Of a stretch of DNA of 64,000 nt, positions 2,571-17,937 are shown in pieces. The stretch is taken from assembly GCA_016788785.1 (NCBI GenBank), contig JAEUSM010000009.1:124001-188000 (forward strand). Direction: 5' to 3'. The first letter of the stretch is position 1. Each line of letters begins with the position of its first letter. Source of the stretch: Candidatus Kapaibacterium sp. Lineage in GTDB: Bacteria > Bacteroidota > Ignavibacteria > Kapaibacteriales > JAEUSM01. The notes below the pieces were generated by a model. It had not been told where the DNA came from, did not search any database, and saw only the letters and a list, made by a program, of their open reading frames with translations. The translations under genes were made by a program, and so were the position numbers.

Positions 2571-3200
2571 TTAGTGTAAATACAATTCAACATCGGTATG
2601 CATAGCACCGGTGCGAATTATTTCAAATGTATCTGTGGTCATATCAATTACAGTCGATTCACCAACAAAGTCTTCCCTGTCAGGTTCTACTATGATATCA
2701 ACAAAACTTGCTAAAAGGTCTAACAATTCGTGTGGATAGTCATGTTGTTTTGTTGGGTGTTTTGCTGTAATTGAAAGTAAAGGATTACCTAATTCTTGTA
2801 ATAATGTCAATGACAATGTATGGTCTGGAACCCTAATACCAGACGTTTTTTTCTTAGGATCCAAAACTAATTTAGGAATCGTTTTTGTTGCAGGCAAAAT
2901 AAACGTAAATGGACCTGGAATTAGTTTTTTAATTGTTTTGTAAGCTTTATCAGAAACCACTGCATAATCTGCAATATTTGATAAGGAATGACACATAAAA
3001 GTGAGTCCTTTATTTGGTTCTAATTTGCGAATTTGTCGAATACGTTCCAATGCACTTTTTTGTTCAATACTACAACCCAAGGAATATCCAGTATCCGTCG
3101 GATAGAGCATAACAGCACCATCATGAAGCATGCGAACGATTTCAGCAACCTTACGCTCTTCTGGAGTTGTAGTATGTACAGAAAAAAATGTTGTCGCCAT
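2571..3200 (-). CDS. YciO/YrdC/Sua5-family protein (threonylcarbamoyl-AMP synthase-like)
   Basis: The protein has the YrdC fold signature: G-A-V-M-L-Y-P-T-D-T-G-Y near the N-terminus, K-x6-L-T-F-M, a P-G-P-F-T-F-I-L segment, and G-I-R-V-P-D. YrdC/TsaC/Sua5 make threonylcarbamoyl-AMP for the t6A37 tRNA modification. The close YciO branch is less well defined biochemically, and this sequence looks more like YciO. I chose the ATG at 3200 (209 residues) because it starts four bases past the upstream gene's stop. The in-frame ATG at 3251 would overlap that gene by 47 bases and add an unrelated N-terminus. Confidence 0.85.
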   Translation of the reverse strand: MATTFFSVHTTTPEERKVAEIVRMLHDGAVMLYPTDTGYSLGCSIEQKSALERIRQIRKLEPNKGLTFMCHSLSNIADYAVVSDKAYKTIKKLIPGPFTFILPATKTIPKLVLDPKKKTSGIRVPDHTLSLTLLQELGNPLLSITAKHPTKQHDYPHELLDLLASFVDIIVEPDREDFVGESTVIDMTTDTFEIIRTGAMHTDVELYLH

Positions 3201-3204
3201 AATA

Positions 3205-4167
3205 TTATGTAGAAAACTCAGATTGTTGAGATGGACGTAAAAACACTGCAAATAATCCTAATGCTCTGTATTCTTCGCAGATTATTTCTGCATATTCTTC
3301 CGAAAAGTATTCACCAACCCAAAATACCTTCACACCTTGCAGTAACTTTTGTTTGTAGTTAAACAACACCGTCATTGCCTTGGCTTCTTGTTCTTCAGAA
3401 CGAGGAATGATAAAAACATCATATTTTTCAAATTCTACATCTTCTGACAAATAGGATTGTAACATAGAATTAACTTCTCCAACGATCATACGTTCTTCTT
3501 CAGAAACTGAGTCATCAATATGAATTAATTCTTTGATAGTATCAATCATTTCCGCAACCTGTTTTTCAGGCGGTAAAATTGATAAATACTCTTTAACTGT
3601 TGAAATAAGAGACTTGAAATTTCCTGTATTAATGGAATTCTCTTGAGAAATTACTTCATCAATTGAAAGTTGAATATTCCACTTTCTGAGAAAATTTTCT
3701 ATGTATTCTCGTTCCTTTTGATGAAATTCATTATCAATATAGGCGATTTGAATAAGTAATGAGACCATGCTATCAGGCCCAACCGGTCTCCGTAAAATTG
3801 CCATAGCCAAATTTCCAATTTCTTTAAACTCTAAAGAAATTGCACTTTTCAACAATTGAAAAAATCCTGCTCTTTTATCAGCACGATAAAGCCAAAAACC
3901 ACAACTAACAAAGACAATAAATATACTAACAATGATGGCAAGTATCTCTCCGATTAATGACTCCCAATCATCTAATCGAAAGTAATGGAATAGAAAAGGA
4001 GTACTTGTAACTATCGATACAATACCTGCTAACGATGATTGAGACTCTGCAACCTTACGTTCATGTTTTCTTTTCCATAATTTATTAACAATAAGATATA
4101 ACTCAACAATTGTCAAAATTAAGGAAAGCCAAATACCTATGAGTAACAGTAGTCGGAAAGATTCCAT
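3205..4167 (-). CDS. membrane-anchored TerB-like protein, copy A
   Basis: This 320-residue protein is not a named gene I recognise. There are membrane helices at about residues 5-27 and 71-94, with a weaker hydrophobic stretch at about 46-62. A helical domain at about 120-245 has two TerB-type acidic motifs, A-Y-I-D-N-E-F-H-Q-K-E and H-I-D-D-S-V-S-E-E-E, which resemble the metal-binding motifs of tellurite-resistance protein TerB and DjlA. A compact C-terminal alpha/beta module (about 250-315) recalls L7/L12-CTD or ClpS topology. It is a close paralogue of the next upstream gene, 30 bases away. Operon position puts it between an amino-acid permease and translation genes; its function is unknown. 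Confidence 0.8.
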   Translation of the reverse strand: MESFRLLLLIGIWLSLILTIVELYLIVNKLWKRKHERKVAESQSSLAGIVSIVTSTPFLFHYFRLDDWESLIGEILAIIVSIFIVFVSCGFWLYRADKRAGFFQLLKSAISLEFKEIGNLAMAILRRPVGPDSMVSLLIQIAYIDNEFHQKEREYIENFLRKWNIQLSIDEVISQENSINTGNFKSLISTVKEYLSILPPEKQVAEMIDTIKELIHIDDSVSEEERMIVGEVNSMLQSYLSEDVEFEKYDVFIIPRSEEQEAKAMTVLFNYKQKLLQGVKVFWVGEYFSEEYAEIICEEYRALGLFAVFLRPSQQSEFST

Positions 4168-4197
4168 TTTGTATGTACACTATTTCTTTATACTATT

Positions 4198-5157
4198 TTA
4201 CGCTGGTTCGAGTTCTTCGGGTATTCTAATAGAAATGGCAAATAGTCCCAATTTTCGGTATTCCTCACACACCATTTCTGCATATTCTTCGGAAAAATAC
4301 TCTGCAACAGAAAAAACATATCCCCCTGGTAAATCCTTACGTTTATAGTCAAAAAGTACTGCTAAAGCTCGTTCTTCTTGTTCTTTATTCCGTGGTACTA
4401 TACACACTTCAAATTTTTTGATATCCTTATCCTGATTGATATAATCACGCAACATAGAAGTTACTTCCGAAACTGTCATTTTTTCTTCTTCAGAGACAGA
4501 TTCATCAACATGAATAAGTTCTTTTATGGTATCAATCAACTGTGCGACTTGTTTTTCTGGAGGCAAAATTTCTAAATATTCTTGAACTGCTTTCAACAAT
4601 GTTGAGTAATTGACATTTTCGTTTTTGTCGTGATACAGTAAAAAATCATCTAAAGATATATTTATGCTCCACTTTTCTATGAACAATTCAATAAATTCAC
4701 GTTCTTTTTTGTGAAATTCATTATCAATATGGGCAATTTGAACTAATATTTCCACCATATTCTTCGCACCAACAGGATGACGAATTAACGCTTTCGCCAA
4801 ATTACCAACCTCAGTTCCTTCTAATTTAAGAGCGTCTTTGATTAAGCGAAAAAAATTGAGCTTTTTTTCATCTCGTTGGAGCCAAATACCACTACCAACA
4901 AAAATAATAAATACGCTGACGCTCAACCAAACAAATGAGCCAATTGCTGACTCAAAATCAGAGCGAGTTATATACCGAAAGAAAAATGGCAATCCTGCCA
5001 ACAATGCAACACAGGAACCCATGATGGATTGTGCTTCTGCTACTTTACGTTCATGCTTCCGTTTCCAAAGTTTATTTACTTTTAAATACGCCTCAACAAA
5101 TGTAAATCCTAATGAAGCCCACAACCAAACCTGAAGTATTTGAAAAAACAGTTCCAT
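4198..5157 (-). CDS. membrane-anchored TerB-like protein, copy B
   Basis: This 319-residue protein is the paralogue of copy A and is collinear over its whole length. Shared segments include K-L-W-K-R-K-H-E-R-K-V-A-E after the first membrane helix, A-H-I-D-N-E-F-H-K-K-E and H-V-D-E-S-V-S-E-E-E in the TerB-like part, L-P-P-E-K-Q-V-A between them, and E-Y-F-S-E-E-Y-A-E in the C-terminal module. Its ATG overlaps the permease stop by one base (TAATG), so the two are probably translated together. Membrane topology suggests the TerB-like and C-terminal domains are cytoplasmic. No role can be assigned from sequence; a scaffold or sensor at the inner membrane is only a guess. Confidence 0.8.
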   Translation of the reverse strand: MELFFQILQVWLWASLGFTFVEAYLKVNKLWKRKHERKVAEAQSIMGSCVALLAGLPFFFRYITRSDFESAIGSFVWLSVSVFIIFVGSGIWLQRDEKKLNFFRLIKDALKLEGTEVGNLAKALIRHPVGAKNMVEILVQIAHIDNEFHKKEREFIELFIEKWSINISLDDFLLYHDKNENVNYSTLLKAVQEYLEILPPEKQVAQLIDTIKELIHVDESVSEEEKMTVSEVTSMLRDYINQDKDIKKFEVCIVPRNKEQEERALAVLFDYKRKDLPGGYVFSVAEYFSEEYAEMVCEEYRKLGLFAISIRIPEELEPA

Positions 5158-6593
5158 TATGTAAATAATTTTTTTCGAAAGTAAAAATAAAAAGGAATTC
5201 CTGTTGCCACTAAAAATAAGCCATAAAGCGAATGTATTATCTCTACCTTGCCATTCACGTACATTTGTATATCAGTGTATAGCGTTAAGAAAACAAACGC
5301 AGTTGCAAAAATAACAAAAATTATAGGAAGATAAGGATAGAAAATAACTTTGTAGGGTCTTTTAGCATTTGGTAATTTCTTTCTCAGTATAAAAAGTCCA
5401 ATTACTCCCAAAGCATAATAAATCCACGTTACAAAAATTAACATACTCGTTAGAGCACGAAATGTTCCTGAAAACACCAACAATGAAGTCCAAACAGCTT
5501 GAAGTATCAATGCTTTATGAGGAGTGTGAAAACTATGATGAATATCCTTCATACTTCGGAAGAAATAACCATCTTCAGCCATTGCTTGATAGACTCTTGC
5601 GGAAGCTAAAATAGTTCCATTCGTAGTGCCAAAAGTAGAAATCATTACAGCAGATGCGACAAGATAACCACCAACTCCACCGAAAATAACTGTAGCAACA
5701 TCTTTGGCTAAAAGCGAAGAACTTGCTATAGATGAAAGTGGAAGCACATACAAAAATGCTGCATTTGTCAAAACATAGAAAACAATAACGGAAATTGTCC
5801 CAATGATTAAAGCATTTGGAATTGTCTTTTGAGGTTTATTTACTTCTCCGGCTACATAGGTGATATTATTCCAACCATCATAAGACCAAAATGCTGCTTG
5901 AATTGCAACAATGAATCCCATTAAAAAAGACAAATTATTATGACTCACAATCGACTGTGAGAAATGAAAATGAGCCGTACCGTTTTGTGCAAAAATTAAC
6001 GAACAAATAATCAACAAACCAATCGCTAAAAATTTAGCGACTGTAAATACATTTTGCACTAAACTTCCTGAACGAACTCCTAAAATATTGACAAATGTTA
6101 AAAAAAGAATTATTCCAACAGTAATGAGTTTGAGTCCAATTTCTTTCAGTGGATAAAATGTACCGACAAACGGCAAATACAAATGAACACTTTGTTCTAT
6201 AGATACGGAAAATCGTGGAAATTGAATAAAAGTTTGTGCATATTCAGAAAAAACATAGGCAATGGAGGCAATTGAACCTGTTTGAATTACTGCAAATATT
6301 GACCAACCATAGAAAAATGCAACTACATCACCATACATTTCTTTGAAAAAAATGTATTGACCTCCAGTTTTTGGAAACATAGAAGCAACTTCCGCATTTG
6401 ATAAGGCACCAATGAGCGTGAGAATCCCAGCTATAACCCAAATCAGTAAATACCAAATTGGTATTCCTAATGCAACGGCAATATCTGTCGGATCTTTAAA
6501 TATACCTGACCCCACCATTGAGCCAGTTACTATCATAATTGTAGAAAACAAACCAATCTTTTGCATTTGAGAAGAATTAGGAGAATTGTTCAT
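5157..6593 (-). CDS. APC-superfamily amino-acid permease
   Basis: This inner-membrane protein has about 12 hydrophobic helices and the APC-family first-helix signature G-S-M-V-G-S-G-I-F. The pattern N-A-E-V-A-S-M-F-P-K-T-G-G follows in helix 2, and S-Y-D-G-W-N-N in helix 6 resembles LAT/CAT-type transporters. Such proteins move amino acids by exchange or proton symport; the substrate cannot be read. I prefer the ATG at 6593 (478 residues). An in-frame ATG at 6638 adds 15 residues, but it lies inside a divergent promoter. It is the first gene of the operon running to position 1. Confidence 0.88.
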   Translation of the reverse strand: MNNSPNSSQMQKIGLFSTIMIVTGSMVGSGIFKDPTDIAVALGIPIWYLLIWVIAGILTLIGALSNAEVASMFPKTGGQYIFFKEMYGDVVAFFYGWSIFAVIQTGSIASIAYVFSEYAQTFIQFPRFSVSIEQSVHLYLPFVGTFYPLKEIGLKLITVGIILFLTFVNILGVRSGSLVQNVFTVAKFLAIGLLIICSLIFAQNGTAHFHFSQSIVSHNNLSFLMGFIVAIQAAFWSYDGWNNITYVAGEVNKPQKTIPNALIIGTISVIVFYVLTNAAFLYVLPLSSIASSSLLAKDVATVIFGGVGGYLVASAVMISTFGTTNGTILASARVYQAMAEDGYFFRSMKDIHHSFHTPHKALILQAVWTSLLVFSGTFRALTSMLIFVTWIYYALGVIGLFILRKKLPNAKRPYKVIFYPYLPIIFVIFATAFVFLTLYTDIQMYVNGKVEIIHSLYGLFLVATGIPFYFYFRKKLFT

Positions 6594-6620
6594 ATGTATC
6601 AATTTAATAAAATGCTTTAC

Positions 6621-6651
6621 TTGAAAAACCATTTTCATTTCCGTATATTTG
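6621..6651 (+). promoter_or_regulatory. Bacteroidota-type promoter for the LysE-family gene
   Basis: TTG at 6621-6623, a 20-base spacer, and TATATTTG at 6644-6651 match the Bacteroidota -33/-7 consensus (TTTG, 19-21 bases, TAnnTTTG). It points toward the exporter gene starting at 6769 and overlaps the upstream region of the divergent permease, so the two units may influence each other. Confidence 0.6.
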
Positions 6652-17649: not shown

Positions 17650-17937
17650 TTAAAGTAGCTTTGGTTTCTTTGAAGTGTTAAAATGCGATTGTATTTTTTT
17701 TATCCAAATGTATCCATTGACAAACACCCCAATAGCATTTGCCCAAATGATAATAGTATCTAAAATCAATAACCCATAAATCAACCACAAAAAGGTACCA
17801 ACTGTAGCCATTGTAAAGGTTCGGAGCGATAGTTGAGACACTTCATTGGTCTTAAATATCTTCCATGCTTGTGGCATCATAGCTGAGGTCGTCAAGATTG
17901 CAGCAATAGTACCAATGATTGAAATTGCGAGCGTCAT
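17650..17937 (-). CDS. SemiSWEET-type sugar transporter
   Basis: This 95-residue inner-membrane protein has three hydrophobic helices, the triple-helix bundle of SemiSWEETs, which work as dimers to let sugars equilibrate. The P-Q of the PQ-loop family is in helix 1 (M-M-P-Q-A-W-K-I), followed by T-N-E-V-S-Q-L-S and G-T-F-L-W-L-I-Y-G in helix 2, and a helix 3 with N-A-I-G-V. It is the first gene of the operon, 15 bases before mraY. Sugar specificity cannot be read. Confidence 0.88.
   Translation of the reverse strand: MTLAISIIGTIAAILTTSAMMPQAWKIFKTNEVSQLSLRTFTMATVGTFLWLIYGLLILDTIIIWANAIGVFVNGYIWIKKIQSHFNTSKKPKLL

Follow-up and report, generated by a model that had tools for sequence, protein, structure and literature searches.

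SemiSWEETs are PQ-loop proteins (MtN3_slv, PF03083) that fold as a triple-helix bundle with a basic cytoplasmic loop 1 and a conserved gate serine. In one report, their activity is strongly lowered by proline-to-alanine and by tryptophan- or asparagine-to-alanine exchanges (PMC5972207). The PQ-loop fold also serves as a receptor in the KDEL receptor, a eukaryotic trafficking protein of seven helices whose evolution another paper connects with the loss of a PQ motif (PMC7561476). A different layout is found in the membrane-anchored co-chaperone DjlA, a TM-TerB-J protein. In its published description, a periplasmic N-terminus is followed by a single membrane helix, a TerB domain just inside the membrane and, as the last part, the J-domain as effector, and TerB is given as a domain of unknown function (PMC11709261). 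TerB domains (PF05099) combine a helical fold with paired acidic sites. They probably bind metal.

The proteins described here share features with each of these systems. Like SemiSWEETs, they contain a triple-helix bundle with a basic loop 1 and the gate serine; unlike SemiSWEETs, they are devoid of PQ, have mostly lost the Trp/Asn pocket, are conserved at the cytoplasmic edge of the bundle and carry an appended TerB domain and a plait. Their order of parts follows that of DjlA, but a three-helix SemiSWEET bundle is found in place of its one helix and a plait in place of its J-domain, and some relatives possess outer sensor domains. The TerB domain has the helical fold and paired acidic sites of PF05099 but is tethered to the membrane inside a larger protein, outside any ter operon. 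The KDEL receptor, in which neither TerB nor a plait is present, offers an analogy in the loss of the PQ motif.

The window (the whole stretch of 64,000 nucleotides analyzed, positions 124,001 to 188,000 of contig JAEUSM010000009.1 of Candidatus Kapaibacterium sp.) encodes two of these proteins in tandem. The downstream paralogue, copy 1 (320 aa), lies at 3205-4167 (-) and the upstream paralogue, copy 2 (319 aa), at 4198-5157 (-); they are 54% identical. The first gene of the run encodes an amino-acid permease (AA_permease_2; 5157-6638 (-)), whose stop codon overlaps the start of copy 2 in the sequence TAATG at 5155-5159, such that copy 2 begins on the last base of the stop codon. Copy 2 and copy 1 are separated by 30 bases, and four bases lie between the end of copy 1 and the likely ATG (3198-3200) of a gene for a Sua5/YciO/YrdC protein (2571-3200 (-)). 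The open reading frame called for the latter (2571-3251 (-)) uses a TTG start overlapping copy 1; the ATG is the likelier start. Next come metG, a gene encoding a short membrane protein with a coiled coil, and a gene for a J-domain protein, the start of which straddles the window edge. A first-pass annotation had described collinear tandem paralogues within a gene run that includes a permease, metG and a J-domain gene, and this description holds. The same window also encodes, at 17650-17937 (-), an orthodox SemiSWEET that retains PQ, Trp and Asn; its gene adjoins an mraY-type gene (named by eye).

Of 99 further genomes from the order, 22 contained a relative (E ≤ 0.001; a sample without closer kin), but among 296 genomes sampled evenly across the phylum only four did, including the window's own genome, so the distribution is patchy. 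Scanning contigs yielded 90 relatives, of which 80 were kept as named loci; these fall into nine phylum-level groups, i.e. Bacteroidota, Ignavibacteriota, Fidelibacterota, Cyanobacteriota, Verrucomicrobiota, Pseudomonadota, Gemmatimonadota, Myxococcota and, with one row, Thermodesulfobacteriota; where such a label comes from a single MAG contig, it may be a binning error. The working set (n = 87) consisted of both window copies, L003 and 84 proteins from named loci. L109, a frameshifted member in two fragments, was left out of all counts. Alignment A1 was made without L018 (a near copy of L014/L016), and alignment A5 without nine near-copies (of 84) and L077:6661-7752, which is fused to another region. 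As references we used 28 SemiSWEETs encoded within the phylum, including the window's own (L153 and L167, which contain stops, were removed), and 25 independent TerB domains (five removed, four with stops and one partial). Since GtrA, considered as a control membrane family, was present in 0 of 41 genomes, the reversed query served as the control in profile-profile comparisons.

Pfam and NCBIfam scans of the two copies returned no model covering the whole protein. Searches of the PDB by sequence alone, run for copy 1, for the family as a whole and for its membrane, TerB and tip parts, gave no match at E < 0.03; the one informative hit was the SemiSWEET 4x5m (E 0.35-0.64). The predicted model of copy 1 (mean pLDDT 82, pTM 0.53) comprises three helices, the TerB bundle and the tip, in that order.

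The three-helix part spans residues 6-93 of copy 1 (3889-4152 (-)) and, by alignment to copy 1, residues 6-93 of copy 2 (4879-5142 (-)). In VIA comparisons of the copy 1 model, SemiSWEETs took places 2-6 among the matches listed (5uhs, Z 8.7; 4x5m, 8.3; 4x5n, 8.2; 4qnc, 7.8; 4rng, 7.5), with 4qnd at Z 7.0, although Z values below about 13 for helical bundles may reflect a common arrangement. All 81 of the 81 target residues of 5uhs superposed at 2.2 Å, and Foldseek matched 4rng with a probability of 0.98. The membrane profile aligned with that of the 28 SemiSWEETs at 94.5% over 75 columns (hhalign; E = 7.5 × 10−8, a single-pair value and not that of a database search), compared with 1.4% for the reversed query and at most 0.4% against TerB, SPOR, ClpS and L12. 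In single-sequence Pfam scans, MtN3_slv weakly matched three of 27 family members (best E 0.027) and neither window copy at E ≤ 1. From model and profiles, the membrane part is thus predicted to have the SemiSWEET/PQ-loop fold. The first-pass annotation had rightly seen N-terminal membrane helices here, but it undersold them, as the recognizable SemiSWEET bundle was missed.

The transport signature of this bundle is lost. Alignment to SemiSWEETs places the Pro-Gln motif at residues 25-26 (TM1), the pocket Trp at 58 (TM2) and the pocket Asn at 74 (TM3), and all of these residues are found in 28 of 28 references. In the family, Pro occurs in 0/87 and Gln in 9/87 members, Trp in 30/87, Asn in 20/87, and Trp and Asn together in 4/87; the window copies have F58 and E74 or S74, and neither carries the pair. 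As Trp is kept in 30/87 and Trp+Asn in 4/87, some members may have residual transport. Gate residue S44 is present in 87/87 members and D67 in 49/87. Among the positions compared, 24, 28, 29, 31, 32, 33, 40, 42 and 44 showed a conservation of 90% or more across the family (Y24, N28, K29, W31-R33, A40, S42 and S44). They lie in loop 1 and at the inner end of TM1, and only Ser44 is common to the references. The conservation of the bundle is therefore shifted to the cytoplasmic edge, and the highest constraint within the membrane part falls on the cytoplasmic loop NKLWKRKHERKVAESQSS (copy 1 residues 28-45; 4033-4086 (-)).

The middle domain (residues 100-240; 3448-3870 (-) in copy 1 and 4438-4860 (-) in copy 2) is a genuine TerB domain, as had been proposed from its DjlA-type acidic helices. 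PF05099 was matched by copy 1 with E 3.8 × 10−4 (21.2 bits) and by copy 2 with E 1.4 × 10−3 (19.4 bits), both below the Pfam cut-off of 24.4 bits, and by 27 of 27 family members at E ≤ 0.5 (best 8.9 × 10−6). The family's TerB profile aligned with the 25 independent TerB domains at 96.1%, and at 0.4% when reversed (hhalign), and the fold match to 2h5n extended over 108 residues (VIA; Z 9.2, 3.8 Å). Residues D145, E152, D218 and E225, as well as E116 and P199, are invariant (87/87). A Ter tellurite/stress operon was rejected for this locus: TerD had no match in the genome, and TerC is located on another contig (C12).

C-terminally, residues 246-313 (3229-3432 (-) in copy 1; 4219-4422 (-) in copy 2, by alignment) form a predicted plait. 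An isolated prediction from 77 sequences (pLDDT 88, pTM 0.75) gave the order strand-helix-strand-strand-helix-strand, i.e. one strand more than the strand-helix-strand-helix-strand block of the first-pass annotation, which had correctly recognized an alpha/beta tip. It had also likened this block to ClpS and L7/L12. The ClpS likeness is borne out at fold level: ClpS chains led the VIA matches of the isolated tip (Z 6.5, 65 residues, 2.8 Å). However, SPOR (Z 5.5, 5.3 and 5.1), UreE, PII-like, Lrp-type and designed ferredoxin folds all scored within about 1.5 of ClpS, and Foldseek ranked the SPOR domain of CwlC first (probability 0.99, TM 0.56, E 0.046), with FtsN at 0.92. In these model comparisons, ClpS and SPOR tie. 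No sequence relationship was detected by hhalign to ClpS (0.1%) or L12 (0.4%), and the alignment with SPOR (3.3%) was in the wrong register; Pfam SPOR matched none of 77 members. The NDD/NDE motif, seen in 28 of 30 ClpS references and which we take to be that of the N-degron pocket, was found at the corresponding place in 0/87 members. ClpS was thus rejected as a relative of the tip, its likeness being a tie of folds, and so was SPOR, which lacks profile and Pfam support in spite of the top Foldseek match. L7/L12 was likewise dismissed as a relative: the profile gave no signal, and the LKEAK motif (26 of 30 references) occurred in 0/87 members. The 50 VIA matches listed for the isolated tip included no L7/L12 structure, although one may lie further down.

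Within the tip, P255 (85/87), Q256 (83/87), G279 (84/87) and S289 (84/87) are conserved, and a G-x-[FYC]-x-S turn is present in 67/87 members. Position 256 is Arg in 3/87 members, including both window copies, and position 279 is Val in copy 1. P255-Q256 come after strand 1 and S289 after strand 3. Strands 1 and 3 lie side by side in this plait fold, so that these residues probably form one site in the predicted structure.

Lys and Arg are biased towards loop 1 (mean 4.7) and the region after TM3 (2.75) compared with loop 2 (0.46), which predicts an outer N-terminus and an inner C-terminus. Eight long members, all from Bacteroidales (L052, L053, L057, L058, L061, L038, L074 and L099), have about 300 additional N-terminal residues before the same SemiSWEET-TerB-plait chassis, and in 8/8 this part matched PF16868, a TAXI/NMT1-like binding protein, over the cut-off (E 10−18 to 4 × 10−25). 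As a binding-protein domain belongs outside, this supports the N-out topology. All ten members of a TIG type were scanned as well: TIG was matched at E ≤ 0.05 in 9/10, over the cut-off in four, and a lipobox pattern occurred in 8/10. Six more members with 88-120 additional N-terminal residues showed no convincing Pfam match in that part, and in 63/87, including both window copies, TM1 is preceded by 60 residues or fewer and an outer domain is lacking. These observations support a sensor-like part outside with TerB and plait inside. Since relatives occur in many phyla, some of them with an outer sensor domain, the family has the look of an undescribed membrane receptor or scaffold.

Besides the window, adjacent pairs occur in five of the 80 named loci, and in the tree tandem pairs arise at four separate places. 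The window pair has a support of 100. For the pairs of three Cytophagales/Bacteroidetes genomes, the downstream copies form one clade (95) and the upstream copies another (89). A Verrucomicrobia pair (90) has long branches, and a Myxococcota pair (90) was flagged as meeting long branches. The need of a three-helix half for a partner could explain these repeated tandem copies. In one Polyangiaceae locus (L077:5965-8073), a copy is continued by another region that matches DUF6892 (E 7.7 × 10−21) and shows a weak GAD-like match, which is either a fusion or an assembly artefact.

The operon neighbourhood of the window is not conserved. The permease-TerB-TerB-YciO-metG order, suggested earlier as worth searching for, did not recur: among 79 loci compared with the window's neighbours, homologues of the permease, metG and LysE-type genes were beside the family gene in none, and the sole common neighbour was Sua5/YciO in one (L048:4997-5638, immediately downstream of the family member and with 54.5% identity to the window's Sua5/YciO). 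A relative of 39% identity in the same order adjoins phenylacetate-type and glyA-type genes (labels by eye). Clustering of the genes up to 6 kb away from the named loci gave groups that mainly follow lineages (best 40 of 86 clusters by recurrence). In all six cyanobacterial loci (Okeania/Trichodesmium; L032-L036 and L109), the first or second gene downstream, on the same strand, is of dnaK type. In Marinimicrobia (e.g. L086, L090 and L094), an NYN-type gene is found directly upstream on the same strand in at least seven loci and a transhydrogenase-type membrane gene convergently downstream in at least 13 (all three gene names by eye).

Several other functions have to be weighed. The proteins might be real but unorthodox SemiSWEET-type transporters that are merely regulated by TerB and plait, in line with the fold, with the retained S44 and D67 and with the amino-acid permease gene immediately upstream in the window; we consider this unlikely in view of the missing PQ-hinge proline and the Trp+Asn pocket that is so rare here and universal in the references, the substitutions at 58 and 74 in the window copies themselves, and the separate orthodox SemiSWEET encoded in the same window. 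The two readings based on the tip fare worse. For a SPOR domain, and with it an envelope or division factor, speak the CwlC and FtsN matches, the shared babbab order (as in CwlC, FtsN and DamX), the G-x-[FYC]-x-S turn and an amidase-like gene (by eye) one to two genes downstream in at least eight loci. Profile and Pfam comparisons speak against it, as does the predicted cytoplasmic location of the domain, where no denuded glycans occur, and we regard it as very improbable. The adaptor suggested in the first-pass annotation, taken further as a membrane-bound ClpS-like protein delivering substrates to a Clp protease, has in its favour a plait of similar size, the best VIA score and the conserved P255-Q256, which would occupy the place of the ClpS pocket motif. 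Given the NDD and profile results, the close scores of other plaits and an ordinary ClpS encoded elsewhere in the genome, we attach the least credence of all to this reading.

The closest competitor of a sensing switch is a simple scaffold at the membrane. Here, the bundle would merely anchor and dimerize the protein, and the TerB-plait part would serve as the membrane platform on which stress proteins (Ter or Hsp70-type) assemble. DjlA provides a precedent as a membrane-anchored co-chaperone (PMC11709261), and the J-domain gene in the window's run and the dnaK-type gene in six of six cyanobacterial loci (one with the frameshifted member) make an Hsp70 link possible, in two lineages only. In the two copies themselves, DnaJ had no Pfam match at E ≤ 1; the J gene is a separate one in the same run. 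In other lineages no J or dnaK neighbour recurs (best 40 of 86 clusters), the Ter genes are absent from the genome (TerD) or on another contig (TerC), the near-invariant residues of loop 1 and TM1 go beyond the needs of an anchor, and the outer binding domains of eight members together with the TIG-type parts of about ten speak for signalling. We therefore hold the scaffold to be possible but doubtful.

We favour a transmembrane switch that senses a ligand or partner, with TerB and plait as its output, because of the DjlA layout and the precedent of the KDEL receptor. That both proteins act as receptors or adaptors in the membrane, with the DjlA-like succession of outside, membrane bundle, TerB and effector, seems to us an even bet; in the best reading, drawn by analogy, a retired SemiSWEET would stand for DjlA's single TM helix and the plait for its J-domain. 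Such proteins would in principle be the KDEL receptor's counterpart in bacteria. More tentatively, with chances we put somewhat below even, the family may be a receptor class in which a SemiSWEET half-transporter has lost its transport site and become a homo- or heterodimeric transmembrane switch, with a ligand or a fused or partner binding protein outside and TerB plus plait as the output inside. In the favoured reading, the bundle would form a parallel dimer, as in true SemiSWEETs, and copy 1 and copy 2 would probably also pair as a heterodimer. Instead of transporting, it would change shape upon ligand binding or in response to an outer domain, and this change would be relayed through the conserved NKxWKRK loop. 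The acidic sites of TerB may bind a metal ion or a partner close to the membrane, and the plait, whose two central strands end in conserved sites, may recruit or release a cytoplasmic partner. It speaks against a receptor that no conserved neighbour gene indicates a pathway and that most members, including both window copies, have no outer sensor.

In literature searches, mostly at the level of titles and abstract openings, no description of a SemiSWEET-TerB fusion was found, which agrees with the earlier suggestion of a membrane-bound sensor or adaptor without previous description; TerB and SemiSWEET are mentioned together in one paper, which concerns silicon uptake by coccolithophores. The parts are already known, while their combination and the reuse of the bundle appear to be new. 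If the favoured reading is true, bacteria would provide a further example of a receptor built on a transporter fold, and the more tentative receptor class would be an independent bacterial instance of the change from transporter to receptor that has been proposed for the KDEL receptor. The orthodox SemiSWEET of the same window offers a natural control for the degenerate bundle. TerB, which is widespread and unsettled in its role, would gain a defined place in signalling, and the family makes its function as a membrane-proximal relay directly testable.
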